Assembly (NCBI GenBank): GCA_036377595.1
Contig: DASUYB010000113.1
Location: forward strand, 1-64,000
Direction of reading: 5' to 3'
Length of the DNA stretch: 64,000 nucleotides
Source of the DNA: Longimicrobium sp.
GTDB lineage: Bacteria > Gemmatimonadota > Gemmatimonadetes > Longimicrobiales > Longimicrobiaceae
The position numbers and the translations under genes are program-made. Below, one piece after another: positions 11,449 to 18,112 of the stretch. The stretch's first letter is position 1, and each line of letters opens with the position of its first letter. The notes beneath the pieces are model-generated. The model was not told the DNA's origin. It worked only from the letters and a program-made list of their open reading frames with translations, and made no database searches.

Positions 11449-12288
11449 ATGGGGATCCTCGATCGTGCGATCTCGGTGTTCCGCCCCGACCCCTCTCCTC
11501 CCATCGCCGCCCCGCGCGGGCTGGCGCGCGATGAGGTGGAGCGCCGTCTGGCGGGCGAAGACCGCTCGCTGGCCGGGCTGGACCTGACCGGCGCCGACCT
11601 GTCGGGGATGGACCTGGAGGGCGCCAACCTGAGCGGCGCCAAGCTCCGCGACGCGAACCTGACGAAGGCGAACCTGACCGGGGCGAACCTGACCGGGGCG
11701 CTCCTCTGCAACGCCGACCTCACCGGCGCCACGCTCGAGAACGCCACGCTGCGCGACGCCAACTGCGTGCGCACGGGCGCCTTCAGCCCGCCCACGCTGG
11801 CCGAGGCGAACCTGTCCGGCGCCGACCTCACCGGCGCCGAGTTGACGCGCGCGAACCTGCACCGCGCCACGCTCACGGGCGCCATCCTCGACGAGGCGGG
11901 GCTGAACCATGCCGACCTGCGCGGCGTGCACGCGGGCGGGGCGCGCTTCCGCGGCGCCAACCTGCGCCACGCGCAGCTCGACGAGGCCACGCTCTCCGGC
12001 GCCAACCTCGACGAGGCCGACCTGGTGCGCGCCGCCTGCCGCGGCGCCAACTTCAGCGGGGCGTCGCTGGTGCGCGCGAACCTGGCCGGGGCGGTGCTCG
12101 AAGGCGCCGACCTCTCCAGCGCCGTCCTCCGCGACGCGCAGCTGGACGGCGTGGTGGTGCGCGGCGCCTCCCTGCGCGGCGCCTCGTTCGCCGGCGCGGA
12201 CCTGGACGGCATCTCGCTCGACGGCGCCGATGTCGAGGGCGCCGACTTCACCGGCAGCTACAACTACCGCGCGCCGGCCGTGACCTGA
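11449..12288 (+). CDS. Pentapeptide-repeat protein
   Basis: 279 residues. After about 45 residues it consists almost wholly of A(D/N)LxG pentapeptides (ANLTG, ADLSG, ATLTG), which fold as a right-handed square beta-helix. GGAGG precedes the ATG. Some family members protect DNA gyrase from quinolones or toxins by mimicking DNA, but nothing here proves that role. The preceding 236 bases hold no gene. Confidence 0.93.
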   Translation: MGILDRAISVFRPDPSPPIAAPRGLARDEVERRLAGEDRSLAGLDLTGADLSGMDLEGANLSGAKLRDANLTKANLTGANLTGALLCNADLTGATLENATLRDANCVRTGAFSPPTLAEANLSGADLTGAELTRANLHRATLTGAILDEAGLNHADLRGVHAGGARFRGANLRHAQLDEATLSGANLDEADLVRAACRGANFSGASLVRANLAGAVLEGADLSSAVLRDAQLDGVVVRGASLRGASFAGADLDGISLDGADVEGADFTGSYNYRAPAVT

Positions 12289-12516: not shown

Positions 12517-12556
12517 TTGACATCTTCTCTCTACACTCGTAGTACTACAGATGTAG
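12517..12556 (+). promoter_or_regulatory. Promoter region with BlaI/MecI-type operator
   Basis: A perfect TTGACA -35 box (12517-12522) is followed by CTACACTCGTAG (12531-12542) and CTACAGATGTAG (12545-12556). The second contains TACA-NN-TGTA, the BlaI/MecI half-site arrangement. The operator lies just before the BlaI-family gene, so autorepression is likely. The -10 box is not clear. Confidence 0.65.
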
Positions 12557-12581
12557 ATAAACACTTCACCGCGGGAGCCGC

Positions 12582-12980
12582 ATGACCGACGCACCCGAGC
12601 TCACCGATCTCCAGCTAGCCGTCCTCCGCGTCCTGTGGGATCGCGGCGAGGCGACGGTGCAGGAGATCCATGCCGCGTTGCTCGACGAGCGTGGCTTGGC
12701 GCCGACGACTGTCGCGACGCTGCTGACGCGGCTGGAGCGGCGCGGCGTGGTGGCGCGGCGGGCGGACGGGCGCGTGCACCGCTACCGGGCGCGCGTCACC
12801 GAGCCCGAGGTGCGGCGCAGCATGGTCGGCGGCCTCGCGGCGCGGCTGTTCGGCGGCGACGTGACCGCGCTGGTGAGCCACCTGCTCGGCGGCGACGAGG
12901 TGGGCGCGGAGGACCTGGAGCGCATCAGGGCGCTCGTGGAACAGCGGGAACGCGAGCTCAAGGAGGGGCAGGATGGGTGA
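12582..12980 (+). CDS. BlaI/MecI/CopY-family transcriptional repressor
   Basis: 132 residues. The winged helix (LTDLQLAVLRVLWDRGEATV, then TTVATLLTRLERRGVV and a wing ending VHRYRA) is followed by a helical dimerisation region. By family it is a homodimer released from DNA when a partner M56 protease is activated. That partner is the next gene, whose ATG overlaps this stop by eight bases. The operator at 12531-12556 supports self-regulation. Confidence 0.95.
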   Translation: MTDAPELTDLQLAVLRVLWDRGEATVQEIHAALLDERGLAPTTVATLLTRLERRGVVARRADGRVHRYRARVTEPEVRRSMVGGLAARLFGGDVTALVSHLLGGDEVGAEDLERIRALVEQRERELKEGQDG

Positions 12981-14466
12981 GCCCGGATCGGCGTACTCGA
13001 CGTTCGTGGACGCGGCGGCCGCGTGGCTGCTGGCGTACGGCATCCACTCCACCGTGCTGCTCGGTGCGGCGTGGCTGGCCTCGCGCGGCCGCCGCGTGGG
13101 CGAGGGCGCGCGGGAGATGCTGTGGAAGCTCGCCCTCGCCGGCGCGCTGGCGACGACGACGATCGCGCAGCTGCGTCCCAGCATCGCCGCGCCGCACGTC
13201 TCGTCGTCGGCGGCGATGGTATCGCGATCGCCGGCGATCCCGATCTCCATCCCGCGAGCCGGGCGTCCTGTCGCCGATGCCATCATCCCCCGTCGATCGA
13301 GCGGTTTGGGGGGATGGAGATGGACGGAGATGGTGGTGCTGGCGTGGCTGGCGGGCGCGGGGATCGCGCTGGCGCGGTTCGGGGCGGGATGGCTGCGCTT
13401 CACGCGGCGGCTCGCGAGGACGTGGGTGGGTGACGGCGATCCGCTCGCGATCGCGCTGCGCGAGGTGTGCGCGGCGGCCGGGGTGCGCCGCCGCATCCGG
13501 CTGACCAGCTCGGCCGCGCTCGCGTCGCCCGTGGCCGTGCTGCGCGGCGAGATCTGCGTCCCGCGCGCGGCGGCCGCGCGGCTCGACGACGAGCAGCGGC
13601 GGGCGATGCTGGCGCACGAGGTCGCGCACCTGCTGCGCGGCGACCCGCTCTGGCTGTGGGCGGCGTCGGCGCTGGCGGGCGTGTTCTGGTTCCAGCCGCT
13701 GCTCCGCCTGTGCGTCCGCCGCCTCCGCGAGTCCGCCGAGTACCAGTGCGACGCGTGGGCGGCGCGGCACACCGGCGCGTTCGCGCTGGCGCGCTGCCTG
13801 GCCGAGGTCGCGTCGTGGCCCGCCGCCCGCGCGCCCCTGGCCGCCGCGGCGATCTCGGGCGGCGGCGCCAGCCTGGTGCGGCGCGTGGAGCGGCTGCTGG
13901 ACCGCGCGCCCGAGCCGCGCGGCGTGCGCCGCTGGGCCGTCGCGGCGCTCCTGGGCGTGGCCGCGGTGGCGGCTTGGATGCCCGGCGTTTCCGCGGGTCC
14001 CGCCGTCGCCCAATCTCCCGCGCGGCAGGAGTCGTTCGCGGCGCGCTTCGGCATCTCCACCGCGCTGGCGGACGCGGTGCAGCGCGCGGCGCGGAGCGAG
14101 GGCGTGGACGCGGAGCTCGCGTTCCGGCTGGTGCACACGGAGAGCCGCTTCGACGAGCGGAAGGCGGGGCCGGGCGGGATCGGGCTGACGCAGATCATCC
14201 TGCCGACCGCGCGCTCGCTGCAGCCCGGCATCACCCGCGGCCAGCTGTTCGAGCGCGACACCAACCTGCGGCTGGGGCTGCGCTACCTGCACCGGATGCT
14301 CGTCCGCTACCCGGGCAACGTCACCCGTGCGGTGCAGGCCTACTACGAGGGTCCGCGCCAGATCGACCGCGACGGCCCCGAGGCGGACACCCGCGCCTAC
14401 GCCGCCGCGCTGCTCGGCCCCGTCGCGGGTCTCCCGGCGTACCGCGGCCCGGGTGTGGGACGATGA
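12973..14466 (+). CDS. M56 (BlaR1-type) sensor protease fused to a lytic transglycosylase domain
   Basis: 497 residues. The N-terminal half is an M56 membrane protease: about four hydrophobic segments and the zinc motif HEVAHLLRGD at 215-224, followed by SAEYQCDAWA. After a last membrane segment near 321-341, the expected extracytoplasmic part is an SLT (lysozyme-like) domain. It has a putative catalytic Glu390 in VHTESRFDERKAGPGG, then GLTQI, NLRLGLRYLHRML and AYYEGP. Ordinary BlaR1 carries a penicillin-binding-protein-like sensor at this place; here a peptidoglycan-cleaving or -binding fold replaces it. Inferred role: sensing cell-wall damage or muropeptides and inactivating the BlaI partner. 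Confidence 0.9.
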   Translation: MGEPGSAYSTFVDAAAAWLLAYGIHSTVLLGAAWLASRGRRVGEGAREMLWKLALAGALATTTIAQLRPSIAAPHVSSSAAMVSRSPAIPISIPRAGRPVADAIIPRRSSGLGGWRWTEMVVLAWLAGAGIALARFGAGWLRFTRRLARTWVGDGDPLAIALREVCAAAGVRRRIRLTSSAALASPVAVLRGEICVPRAAAARLDDEQRRAMLAHEVAHLLRGDPLWLWAASALAGVFWFQPLLRLCVRRLRESAEYQCDAWAARHTGAFALARCLAEVASWPAARAPLAAAAISGGGASLVRRVERLLDRAPEPRGVRRWAVAALLGVAAVAAWMPGVSAGPAVAQSPARQESFAARFGISTALADAVQRAARSEGVDAELAFRLVHTESRFDERKAGPGGIGLTQIILPTARSLQPGITRGQLFERDTNLRLGLRYLHRMLVRYPGNVTRAVQAYYEGPRQIDRDGPEADTRAYAAALLGPVAGLPAYRGPGVGR

Positions 14467-14957
14467 CCGCGCGGCGCATGCTGGCCGGCGCGATCCTGGC
14501 CGCGGCGACCACCGCCGCGGCCTGCGATCCGCCGATGGTCTCGCCGCCGTTCCGCGATCCGACGCCCGCGCGCGTCACGGTCGGCGACCTCGCGCGGCTG
14601 CGGTGGATCGTGGGCGATTGGCGGGGGACGGGGGCACACCAGGCGCCGTTCTACGAGCGCTACCGCTTCGAGGACGATTCGACGCTGGTGGTGGAGTCGT
14701 TCGCCGACTCGACCTTCGCGCGGGCGACGGAGGCGACGCGGTTCGCGCTGCGCGGCGGCCGCCTGGGCCCGGACGAGCGGACGGCTGCGTCGCGGATCGA
14801 CGCGCGCTCGGTGACCTTCGCGCCGCAGCGGCCGGGCCCGAACTGGTACCAGTTCCGCTACGTGAACCGCGACGCGTGGACGGCGGTGCTCTGGTACCCC
14901 GCGACGCAGGCCCGCCCCGAGCGCACCGTCATCTACGACATGCGCCGGGTGCGGTGA
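14463..14957 (+). CDS. Putative lipoprotein, third gene of the blaI operon
   Basis: 164 residues. A signal peptide ends at Cys22 (TTAAAC), followed by a beta-rich domain with LRWIVGDWRGTG, FYERYRFEDDSTLVVESF and a C-terminal RTVIYDMRRVR, resembling lipocalin/DUF6265-like folds. The ATGA overlap with the protease gene shows tight coupling. It could be a ligand-binding accessory or an output of the sensor; the function is unknown. Confidence 0.8.
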   Translation: MTARRMLAGAILAAATTAAACDPPMVSPPFRDPTPARVTVGDLARLRWIVGDWRGTGAHQAPFYERYRFEDDSTLVVESFADSTFARATEATRFALRGGRLGPDERTAASRIDARSVTFAPQRPGPNWYQFRYVNRDAWTAVLWYPATQARPERTVIYDMRRVR

Positions 14958-15188: not shown

Positions 15189-16901
15189 TCAGGTCTGGAA
15201 GCCGCTCACCAGCTCGCGCATGCGCTCGGCGCTGTGGAGGAGCTCCATGCTGCTGGCCGACATCTCCTGCGTGGCGGCGCTCTGCTCCTCGGCGGCGGCG
15301 CTGACCTCCTCGGCGCTGGCGGCGTGGCTCTCGCTGGTGCCGCTGACCTCCGCCACCGCCATCTCCACCCCCTCCATCGCCGCGCCGTTGCGCGTCACCG
15401 CGTCCTCCACCTGGTCGGCCGCCATCCGCACTCCGTCGACCGCGGCCAGGATCTGCTCCAGCGCGGCGTCGGCGCCCTTCGACACGTGCTCCACGTCGGC
15501 CACCTTCTCCTGCCCGCGCGACATGGTGCCCACCACGCCCTCGATGCGGCTGCGGATGGCGTGCACGTTCTGCGCGACCTCCTGCGCCGCGCGCGCCGAG
15601 CCTTCCGCCAGCTTCCGCACCTCCTCGGCGACCACCGCGAAGCCGCGCCCGTGCTCGCCGGCGCGCGCCGCCTCGATGGCCGCGTTCAGCGCCAGCAGGT
15701 TGGTCTGCCGCGCGATGCCGGTGATGGTCTCGACGAAGCGGTCGATCTGCAGCGAGGTCTGCTCCAGCTCGGTCACCTGGTTGGCGCTGGCCTGCACCAC
15801 GTCGCGGATCTCCACCAGCCGCGCCAGCGCCGTCGACACCTCCTGCCGCGAGCGCGTGGCCGTCTCGAAGATCTGCTGCGTGAGCGAGCTCACCATCCGC
15901 GCCGCGTTCGACATCTCCTGCGTGCGGTGCTTCATCTCGTCCAGCGCCTCCTGCGTGGCCTGCAGGCCGTGGCTCTGGCTTTCCGCGCCGCTGGCGATTC
16001 CCACCATCGCCGTCGCCACCTCGCCCGACGACGCGGCGACCTCCTCGGAGATGGAGGAGAGGTCCGACGCGAAGGTGGAGATGCGCTCGGCCGTCGACAC
16101 CGTTTCGCTCACGATGTTGCGCAGCTGCCCCGCCATCCCGCTGAACGCGCCCGCCAGCGAGGCGAACTCGCCGGTCATGTTGCCGTTCAGGCTCACCCGC
16201 AGGTCGCCCTCGCCCAGCCGTTCGGCCGCCGTCACCAGCTCGTTCAGCGGCCGGGTGATGCTGCGGATGGTGGTGAAGACGAGCCCGGCGGCGATCAGCG
16301 CGGCGATCACGCCGATGGCGACGAGGCCCAGCTCCGTGTTCCGCGCCCGCTCGCGCAGCTGGGCCGACGCCGTGGCCACCTTCTCGGCCTGCGCCGCGCT
16401 GATCTTGCGGATCTCCTGCTGCAGCTCCTGCGTCTGCGGGCGGATGGCCGCCACCCGGCCGAGCGCGCCTTCGGTGTCGCCGATGTCGCGCTGCGCGTGC
16501 GCCAGCGCGTACTCCACCTCGATGCGCGAGTGCAGCCCCTCGACCTTCACGATCTCCTGCTGCTCGGCGGGCGTCAGGTCCTGCAGGTCCTTGTACTGGC
16601 GCCGCTGCTCGTGCGCCTGCCGGCCCAGGCTGCTGAACTGCTCGGCGATCTGCGGGCTGGGCGTCACCAGGTAGCGCTCGCCGGCGGCGATCTGGTTCAG
16701 GATCAGCGACTCCAGCGAGCTGCCGATCTCCGTCGACCGCCGCAGGCTCTGCAGCCGCTCGTCCATGCGCCGGGTCAGCCCGCTCACCGTCAGCAGGCTC
16801 CCCAGGGCGCCAAGGGTGATCAGCAGCACCAGGAACGCGCCGCCCCAGATCAGGCGGTCCCGGATCGACCGGAAGAAGCCGGGCCGGGTAATCGTGCTCA
16901 T
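15189..16901 (-). CDS. Methyl-accepting chemotaxis protein
   Basis: 570 residues. TM1 lies near 18-40, a mostly helical periplasmic domain near 41-185, TM2 near 190-212, then HAMP ([21 protein letters not shown]) and a long cytoplasmic coiled coil. The CheA/CheW-binding tip is [20 protein letters not shown]. It sends ligand signals to CheA, presumably the one at 54684-56633, the only CheA here. The ATG overlaps the TGA of the upstream binding-protein gene, suggesting that protein delivers the ligand. No CheR-docking pentapeptide is seen at the C-terminus. Confidence 0.95.
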
Positions 16902-18112
16902 CGAGAGACCTTGTTGAGCTGGATGGTTCCGTTCTGGATGACGCCCACGGCGAACGCCTTCTGCTCGGGGTCGCCGTTGCGGTCGAAGCGGATCTCGCCC
17001 GTGGCGCCCTGGAACGGCGGCGCGCCGCCCTGCTGCCCGAGCGTGTGGAGATAGCGCTGGATCCCTTCGCGCGTGGGGCCGTTGGCCGCGGCCGCCGCGG
17101 CCAGCAGCTTCACCGCGTCGTACGCCGCCGCCGCGAAGGGGTCGGGGTCGCTCCCGTACGCCTGCCGGTACGCCGCGGCGAAGGCCTGCGCGCGGTCGCT
17201 CGCGGCGGGGTGGTAGAGCAGGCCCACGAGCGTTCCCTCGTACGTCGCGCCCTGCGTGGCCAGCGGCACGAGCCCGTCGCCGCCGATGAAGCGCGCCGCG
17301 AGGCCCAGCTGCCGCGCCTGGGTGATGATGCGCGCGCCGGCCGCGTCGAGCCCGGCGATGAACACCACCTGCACCCCGCGGCCCTGCATCCGCTTCAGGT
17401 ACGGGCCGAAGTCCGCCGTCGAGTCGCTGAACGGGTCGTACTCGGCCACGCGCCCGCCGCCCTTCTCCAGTGCGTCGCGGAAGCTTCCCGCCAGCCCGCG
17501 GCCGTAGTCGTCGTTGGTGTACATGATGGCCACCGTCGGCGCCAGCTGCCGCGCCGTGGCGGCCAGCGCCACGGCGTTGGCCGAGTCCGACGAGGCCACG
17601 CGGTAGGTCCAGTCGCCCAGCCGGCTGACGGCGGGGGACGTCGCCGTCGTCGCCAGCCCGGGGAGCGCGCCCTTCACGCTGTCGGACTGGCCGTTGTAGA
17701 TCGGCGCCGCGGCGATCGTGGTCCCCGAGTTCACCGGCCCCGCCAGGGCGACGACGTTCGCGTCGCGCACCAGGTCGGCGGCAATGGAGATGGCGGTGTG
17801 CGCGTCGGCGTCGTCGTCCTTCTGCACCAGCACCAGCGTGCGCCCGCCGATGCCGCCCCGCGCGTTGATCTCCTTCACCGCCAGCTCGGCGCCCTGCCGC
17901 GTGGCGATGCCGTACGCCTGCTTCAGCGGCCCCGCCAGCGCGAACGTCACCTGCCCGCCGCCTCCGCCGCGGCACGAAGCCACGGCAAGGACCAGCAGGG
18001 GCGCCGCCAGCGCAGCGCGATGGCGTGCCGGGTGCCGCGGGCGTGCCGCGCGGCCAGAGGGCGGGTGGGGCATGTCGGGGCCGGGAAGCCGGGGAAGGTG
18101 AGAACGTCGCAT
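16898..18112 (-). CDS. Branched-chain-amino-acid-type (Leu/Ile/Val) periplasmic binding lipoprotein
   Basis: 404 residues of the type I periplasmic binding fold (Peripla_BP_6): [23 protein letters not shown], then [33 protein letters not shown] and [12 protein letters not shown] signal peptide ends at a lipobox Cys near residue 47 after an Arg-rich leader. No permease or ATPase gene is adjacent. Coupling to the chemoreceptor instead suggests a chemosensory ligand-capture protein. The ATG at 18112 has no obvious ribosome site; ATG 18073 is an alternative. Confidence 0.9.

Follow-up and report, generated by a model that had tools for sequence, protein, structure and literature searches.

The window, that is, the whole stretch of 64,000 nucleotides of a Longimicrobium sp. 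contig (DASUYB010000113.1) analysed here, carries a compact operon of three genes on the plus strand between positions 12531 and 14957. It encodes a repressor of the BlaI/MecI family, a protein in which an M56 metalloprotease module is fused to a lytic transglycosylase (SLT) domain, and a probable small lipoprotein. The features are:

12519-12524, plus strand: -35-like box TTGACA (sequence)
12531-12556, no strand assigned: tandem BlaI-type operator CTACACTCGTAG-TA-CTACAGATGTAG (sequence, conservation in G003)
12582-12980, plus strand: blaI, BlaI/MecI-family repressor, 132 aa (Pfam Penicillinase_R, E 8.5e-31)
12973-14466, plus strand: M56-SLT fusion receptor, 497 aa (Pfam Peptidase_M56 and SLT, orthologue, Foldseek)
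13000-13992, plus strand: BlaR1-like membrane and zinc metalloprotease module (alignment, topology, AlphaFold2, Foldseek)
13987-13998, plus strand: candidate signal-peptidase site VSA-G after TM4, residues 339-342, cut between A and G (sequence, BlaR1 analogy)
14062-14397, plus strand: external SLT domain, residues 364-475 (Pfam SLT, PaSlt alignment, model pLDDT mostly >94)
14463-14957, plus strand: third gene, probable small lipoprotein, 164 aa (orthologue in G003, weak fold matches)

The overlap between blaI and the fusion gene is 8 bases, that between the fusion gene and the third gene 4 bases (ATGA). Pfam places Peptidase_M56 at residues 117-262 (E 3.5e-20) and SLT at residues 368-474 (E 3.1e-12) of the fusion; both matches, as well as that to Penicillinase_R, exceed the curated Pfam cut-offs. 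An initial annotation, made by reading the sequence alone, had described one 497-residue protein with an M56 and an SLT part. The HMM search recovered both domains, with HEVAHLLRGD at residues 215-224, and the number given then for the SLT glutamate (390) was right, as were the coordinates.

The three genes form an orthologous unit with those of G003, a genome of the same genus. The fusion orthologue is 75% identical end to end with an identical junction, the repressor is 90% and the third gene 70-71% identical. By halves, the fusion proteins share 84% identity in the SLT part and 73% in the M56 part. Differences between the two fusion genes lie mostly at third codon positions. Their dN/dS by NG86 is about 0.4, an approximate value only, given how rich in GC these genes are; we take this as a sign of purifying selection. 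Other M56 proteins are without SLT, and an assembly or sequencing error joining two genes, already envisaged in the initial annotation, might have produced such a protein. This explanation is virtually dismissed by the full-length orthologue with the same junction in G003 and by fusions of another type in two other genomes, G006 and G007.

Directly upstream of the operon lies a gene for a pentapeptide-repeat protein (11449-12288, plus strand; PF00805, 2.8e-58). A methyl-accepting chemotaxis protein beside a periplasmic substrate-binding protein (15189-18112, minus strand) is encoded convergently with the operon, and the G003 operon (L040) has similar neighbours.

Repressor, operator and third gene

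Judged from its sequence, the first product is a BlaI/MecI repressor, with a Penicillinase_R winged helix, the C-terminal dimer part and the TACANNTGTA operator at its own promoter. It aligns without gaps with S. aureus BlaI (1sd4), and in this alignment H100-L101 fall on the S. aureus cleavage site N101-F102. The -35-like TTGACA ends 17 bases ahead of a -10-like TAGTAC (12542-12547), which the operator pair covers; since TAGTAC is poor as a -10 element, a consensus promoter scanner made no call at the blaI promoter. Operator box 1 (TACAGATGTA, 12546-12555) is a perfect TACANNTGTA, box 2 (TACACTCGTA, 12532-12541) matches it in seven of eight letters, and their centres lie 14 bases apart over the -10 region. 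TTGACATC is conserved in the promoter of the G003 orthologue. There both boxes are perfect and stand at the same distances from the blaI start (50 and 36 bases), with the rest of the upstream region drifting. The BlaI-type repressor with a TACA-NN-TGTA operator named in the initial annotation is thus confirmed by the Penicillinase_R match and the box pair at the blaI promoter.

With up to three mismatches, the tandem operator occurs a single time in the 7.2 Mb genome to which the window belongs (G000), namely at the blaI promoter. Of the exact single box CTACANNTGTAG there is one copy in G000 and there are two in G003, all of them at the blaI promoter of the fusion operon. Genome-wide searches with the tandem operator (three mismatches) or the exact single box revealed no wider regulon. 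On the basis of these motif searches the circuit looks local and autoregulated rather than a broad cell-wall-damage regulon.

The third-gene protein has a 71% identical orthologue at the same position in G003 and none in 59 other relatives; the lipoprotein is found in 2 of 61 genomes, the same two that carry the window-type fusion. As the operator is present only at the operon's own promoter and the lipoprotein only beside this fusion, the likely output of the circuit is the operon itself, with the small lipoprotein as its likely sole non-regulatory product. The initial annotation had described overlapping genes for BlaI, a sensor and a lipoprotein. The overlaps stand, whereas the designation lipoprotein is only probable, since the lipobox (AAAC) is weak; the product is probably exported and lipid-anchored. 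Pfam gave a sub-threshold match to the THAP4 barrel, a low-confidence structural model gave weak lipocalin/nitrobindin matches (best E 0.045), and comparison with PDB sequences gave no match. From these fold matches, the protein is possibly a lipocalin-like beta-barrel.

The M56 module and its external domain

The M56 module comprises TM1 (residues ~10-37), TM2 (44-67), an outer loop (68-116), TM3 (117-146) and TM4 (320-340). Its zinc site consists of HEVAH (215-219) and E256 as third ligand, together with D260; H215, E216, H219, E256 and D260 are invariant across all fusions. Hydropathy and positive-inside counts predict an N-out protein with four membrane segments and the C-terminal SLT domain outside, not in the cytoplasm, in line with the external position first proposed. 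The PF05569 (Peptidase_M56) score is 72.8 bits against a cut-off of 31. When an HMM of the alignment was compared with the PDB, it matched BlaR1 (8exp, E 7.6e-15), with HEVAH and E256/D260 on the BlaR1 zinc site. AlphaFold2, supplied with window and locus proteins aligned in 67 rows, gave a model of the fusion with a mean pLDDT of 85.7 and values >90 over most of both domains; the outer loop (~70-116) and the linker (338-348) are disordered. Foldseek aligned the model with cryo-EM structures of BlaR1 (8exr_A, TMt 0.57, rmsd 3.4; 8exs_A, E 2.1e-4). Profile, HExxH, third Glu, Asp, four membrane segments and N-out/C-out orientation place the module in the Peptidase_M56/BlaR1 fold (MEROPS M56). 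By analogy, it may act as a zinc protease on BlaI and on itself.

BlaR1/MecR1 carry a penicillin-binding domain with an SXXK serine at the external position. This domain is absent here; there is no Pfam transpeptidase match, and an SLT domain is found instead. The NCBIfam model blaR1_generic scores 33.4 bits against a cut-off of 400. The landmarks of the SLT domain are E390-S391, GIGLTQ (402-407), AYYEG (456-460) and then a conserved Y476. E390 aligns with the catalytic Glu503 of P. aeruginosa Slt (PaSlt), where the E503Q mutant structure 6fcq shows Gln. Foldseek matched the SLT part to PaSlt, Slt70, MltC and MltE, and to Cj0843 with an rmsd of 2.9 over 129 columns. The structure prediction suggested in the initial annotation thus yields a fold that matches both BlaR1 cryo-EM structures and lytic transglycosylases, and a BlaR1-type receptor whose external domain has the SLT fold is well supported.

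The system resembles BlaR1/MecR1-BlaI/MecI of S. aureus and B. licheniformis in its BlaI-family repressor, TACANNTGTA operators and overlapping M56 receptor gene, and in a receptor with N-out/C-out topology, HExxH plus third Glu and an enzyme-derived external domain after TM4. It differs in having SLT in place of the penicillin-binding serine domain, in an operon that holds neither beta-lactamase nor PBP2a, and in an operator restricted to its own promoter. Fold and operon logic group it with the BlaI-M56 systems; lacking the defining domain, it does not count as a BlaR1 beta-lactam receptor. With family 1 lytic transglycosylases (Slt70, PaSlt, MltC, MltE) the external domain shares the fold, Glu390 on PaSlt Glu503, the ES and GLxQ motifs and the later conserved Tyr. 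In contrast to these enzymes, it has AYYEG for AYNxG, an attached membrane protease and no other lytic transglycosylase domains.

BlaR1 has an N-out/C-out topology and sheds its sensor domain at a signal-peptidase site (PMC9834060). We regard VSA-G as a candidate shedding site and the putative counterpart of that documented BlaR1 site; it is also present in G003, and TSA-H, with the corresponding cut between A and H, is found at the equivalent place in G006 and G007.

M56-SLT proteins in related genomes

G006 and G007 each contain a second BlaI/M56-SLT pair, whose fusion proteins are 35-37% identical to that of the window:

L041:4199-5665, minus strand: M56-SLT receptor of the second type, paired with a separate BlaI, degenerate SLT motifs GLAR and IYLRG
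L042:4223-5728, plus strand: M56-SLT receptor of the second type, paired with a separate BlaI, degenerate SLT motifs GLAR and IYLRG

In a tree of 55 M56 modules, the M56 half of the second type lies elsewhere in the family, in a part with strong support. A single origin by descent, with the four fusions as one M56 clade, was rejected for the M56 half (AU p 1.3e-56). The SLT halves of both types group together with a support of 93/94, which is not decisive. Either an SLT module was transferred between two BlaI-M56 loci, or it was captured twice from one SLT subfamily. The occurrence of the M56-SLT combination on two M56 backgrounds argues for a functional combination. The gene after the fusion encodes a polysaccharide deacetylase in G007, which might be a glycan-modifying output, and in G006 a different protein with apparent beta-propeller repeats.

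An order-wide scan of 154 genomes, with up to ten candidates each, revealed only these four M56-SLT fusions. The phylum was scanned by scoring the best three candidates per genome, which makes absence there weak evidence. When contigs of other phyla were searched with six peptides, the sole match was one to the M56 region, in a planctomycete, and the open-access literature searched holds no description of an M56-SLT protein. An SLT domain at the external position of a BlaR1-type receptor is rare among the genomes scanned and, no description having been found, apparently undescribed.

Other BlaI-M56 pairs of the phylum follow the same two-gene logic with a variable C-terminal domain, and differ from the present system in carrying external HEAT repeats, DUF4097-like or unassigned domains and no SLT. 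Receptors of this phylum commonly vary in their external domain. The genome of the window itself has eight BlaI genes, most of them adjoining M56 proteins (L043, L045, L046, L047 and others). In these neighbours the external part is a long array of HEAT repeats or a DUF4097-like domain; together they make up a large set of orphan BlaR1-type receptors.

Motif drift, possible signal and proposed mechanism

SLT enzymes are characterized by the motifs ES, GLMQ and AYNxG (PMC8517470, PMC550655), of which AYNxG contributes to substrate interaction in Slt70 (PMC550655). AYN is kept in all 13 stand-alone relatives examined, and its Asn is lost in all four fusions. The window protein and its G003 orthologue read ESRF, GLTQ and AYY(E/Q)G; those of G006 and G007 read ESGF, GLAR and IYLRG and have lost the Gln of GLMQ as well. 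The window protein thus has ES and GLTQ, with AYNxG replaced by AYYEG; its profile match is above the cut-off and the lowest-scoring among the 11 SLT domains of the genome. All four fusions have the catalytic-type Glu at the position of E390. As the substrate-contact motif has drifted in both lineages, we read the SLT domain as one retained to bind, whose turnover is reduced or absent. This motif pattern favours glycan binding over efficient cleavage.

The window protein retains E390, S391, Q407, Y457 and Y476, which is compatible with catalysis. An active enzyme would turn the argument round: the SLT domain would be output and not input, a membrane-anchored lytic transglycosylase dosed by the BlaI/M56 loop and possibly released by signal peptidase or M56 autocleavage. 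The signal-peptidase-like site after TM4 and an operon that controls its own synthesis would suit such a role, as would the retained catalytic Glu, Ser, Gln and tyrosines. Nevertheless we consider it unlikely, given AYY for AYN here and IYL in the second lineage, where the Gln of GLMQ is lost too. An M56 loop lacking a sensor would have nothing to trigger it, and ten more SLT proteins are encoded in the genome.

Catalysis could also serve signalling indirectly, if the SLT domain cut glycan and a muropeptide, taken up and recycled, bound BlaI. Direct inactivation of BlaI/MecI by the peptidoglycan dipeptide gamma-D-Glu-L-Lys has been published (PMC3305447). The conserved catalytic Glu fits such a route; the motif drift speaks against high activity, and the operon is without an uptake gene. 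Moreover, SLT products are anhydro-disaccharide peptides and, from what is known of the family, differ from that dipeptide. We rate this route as quite improbable.

On balance we lean towards a BlaI-BlaR1-type cassette in which the beta-lactam-binding domain has been replaced by an SLT domain most likely binding peptidoglycan glycan. The mechanism can be modelled on BlaR1. There, the ligand moves the outer loop off the sensor, which is drawn towards the membrane and shielded from signal peptidase; the ligand also activates the protease, which cuts BlaI between Asn101 and Phe102 (PMC9834060). Accommodated in the SLT cleft, a glycan strand or muropeptide would shift the domain with respect to both membrane and outer loop. 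This shift would activate the cytoplasmic M56 zinc protease, which would cut BlaI near H100-L101 and derepress the whole operon including the lipoprotein. When no ligand is bound, shedding of the SLT domain may occur at the signal-peptidase-like site that follows TM4. With its changed AYNxG motif, the domain may bind its ligand and turn it over slowly or hardly at all, comparable to the BlaR1 sensor as an enzyme-derived domain turned receptor. The suggestion of the initial annotation that the SLT domain may detect glycan strands or muropeptides, or process them, is plausible; direct sensing of muropeptides or of cell-wall damage would follow by analogy to BlaR1. To a more far-reaching version we give somewhat less than even credence: a near-dead lytic transglycosylase as direct receptor for the cell's own wall glycan or muropeptides, on two unrelated M56 backgrounds and with a closed one-operon response.

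It may also be that the external domain senses no ligand at all, as other M56 proteins examined in this genome carry HEAT repeats and other domains with no known ligand. SLT might serve only to tether the receptor to the cell wall, holding it in position or under tension, with the signal arising elsewhere, for instance at the lipoprotein or the TM2-TM3 outer loop. The lipoprotein strictly co-occurs with the window-type fusion, and the model shows a long outer loop of ~50 residues without structure. For a simple tether, however, there would be no need to conserve catalytic-site residues, and all four fusions retain E390; we hold this alternative to be improbable.

To our knowledge, BlaR1-like receptors are known almost exclusively as beta-lactam sensors. 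Many M56 proteins in genomes have no known signal. If glycan sensing holds true, the ligands of the external domain belong to a class that is already known (glycan strands, muropeptides, bulgecin-type inhibitors). Such a receptor would make the signals of orphan receptors testable, and would show how bacteria may sense the wall itself instead of the drug. The single-operon, single-operator circuit would offer a compact base for a glycan biosensor.

The SLT family is expanded in this lineage: the genome has 11 SLT domains, several of them in short exported proteins that are near relatives of the fused domain.
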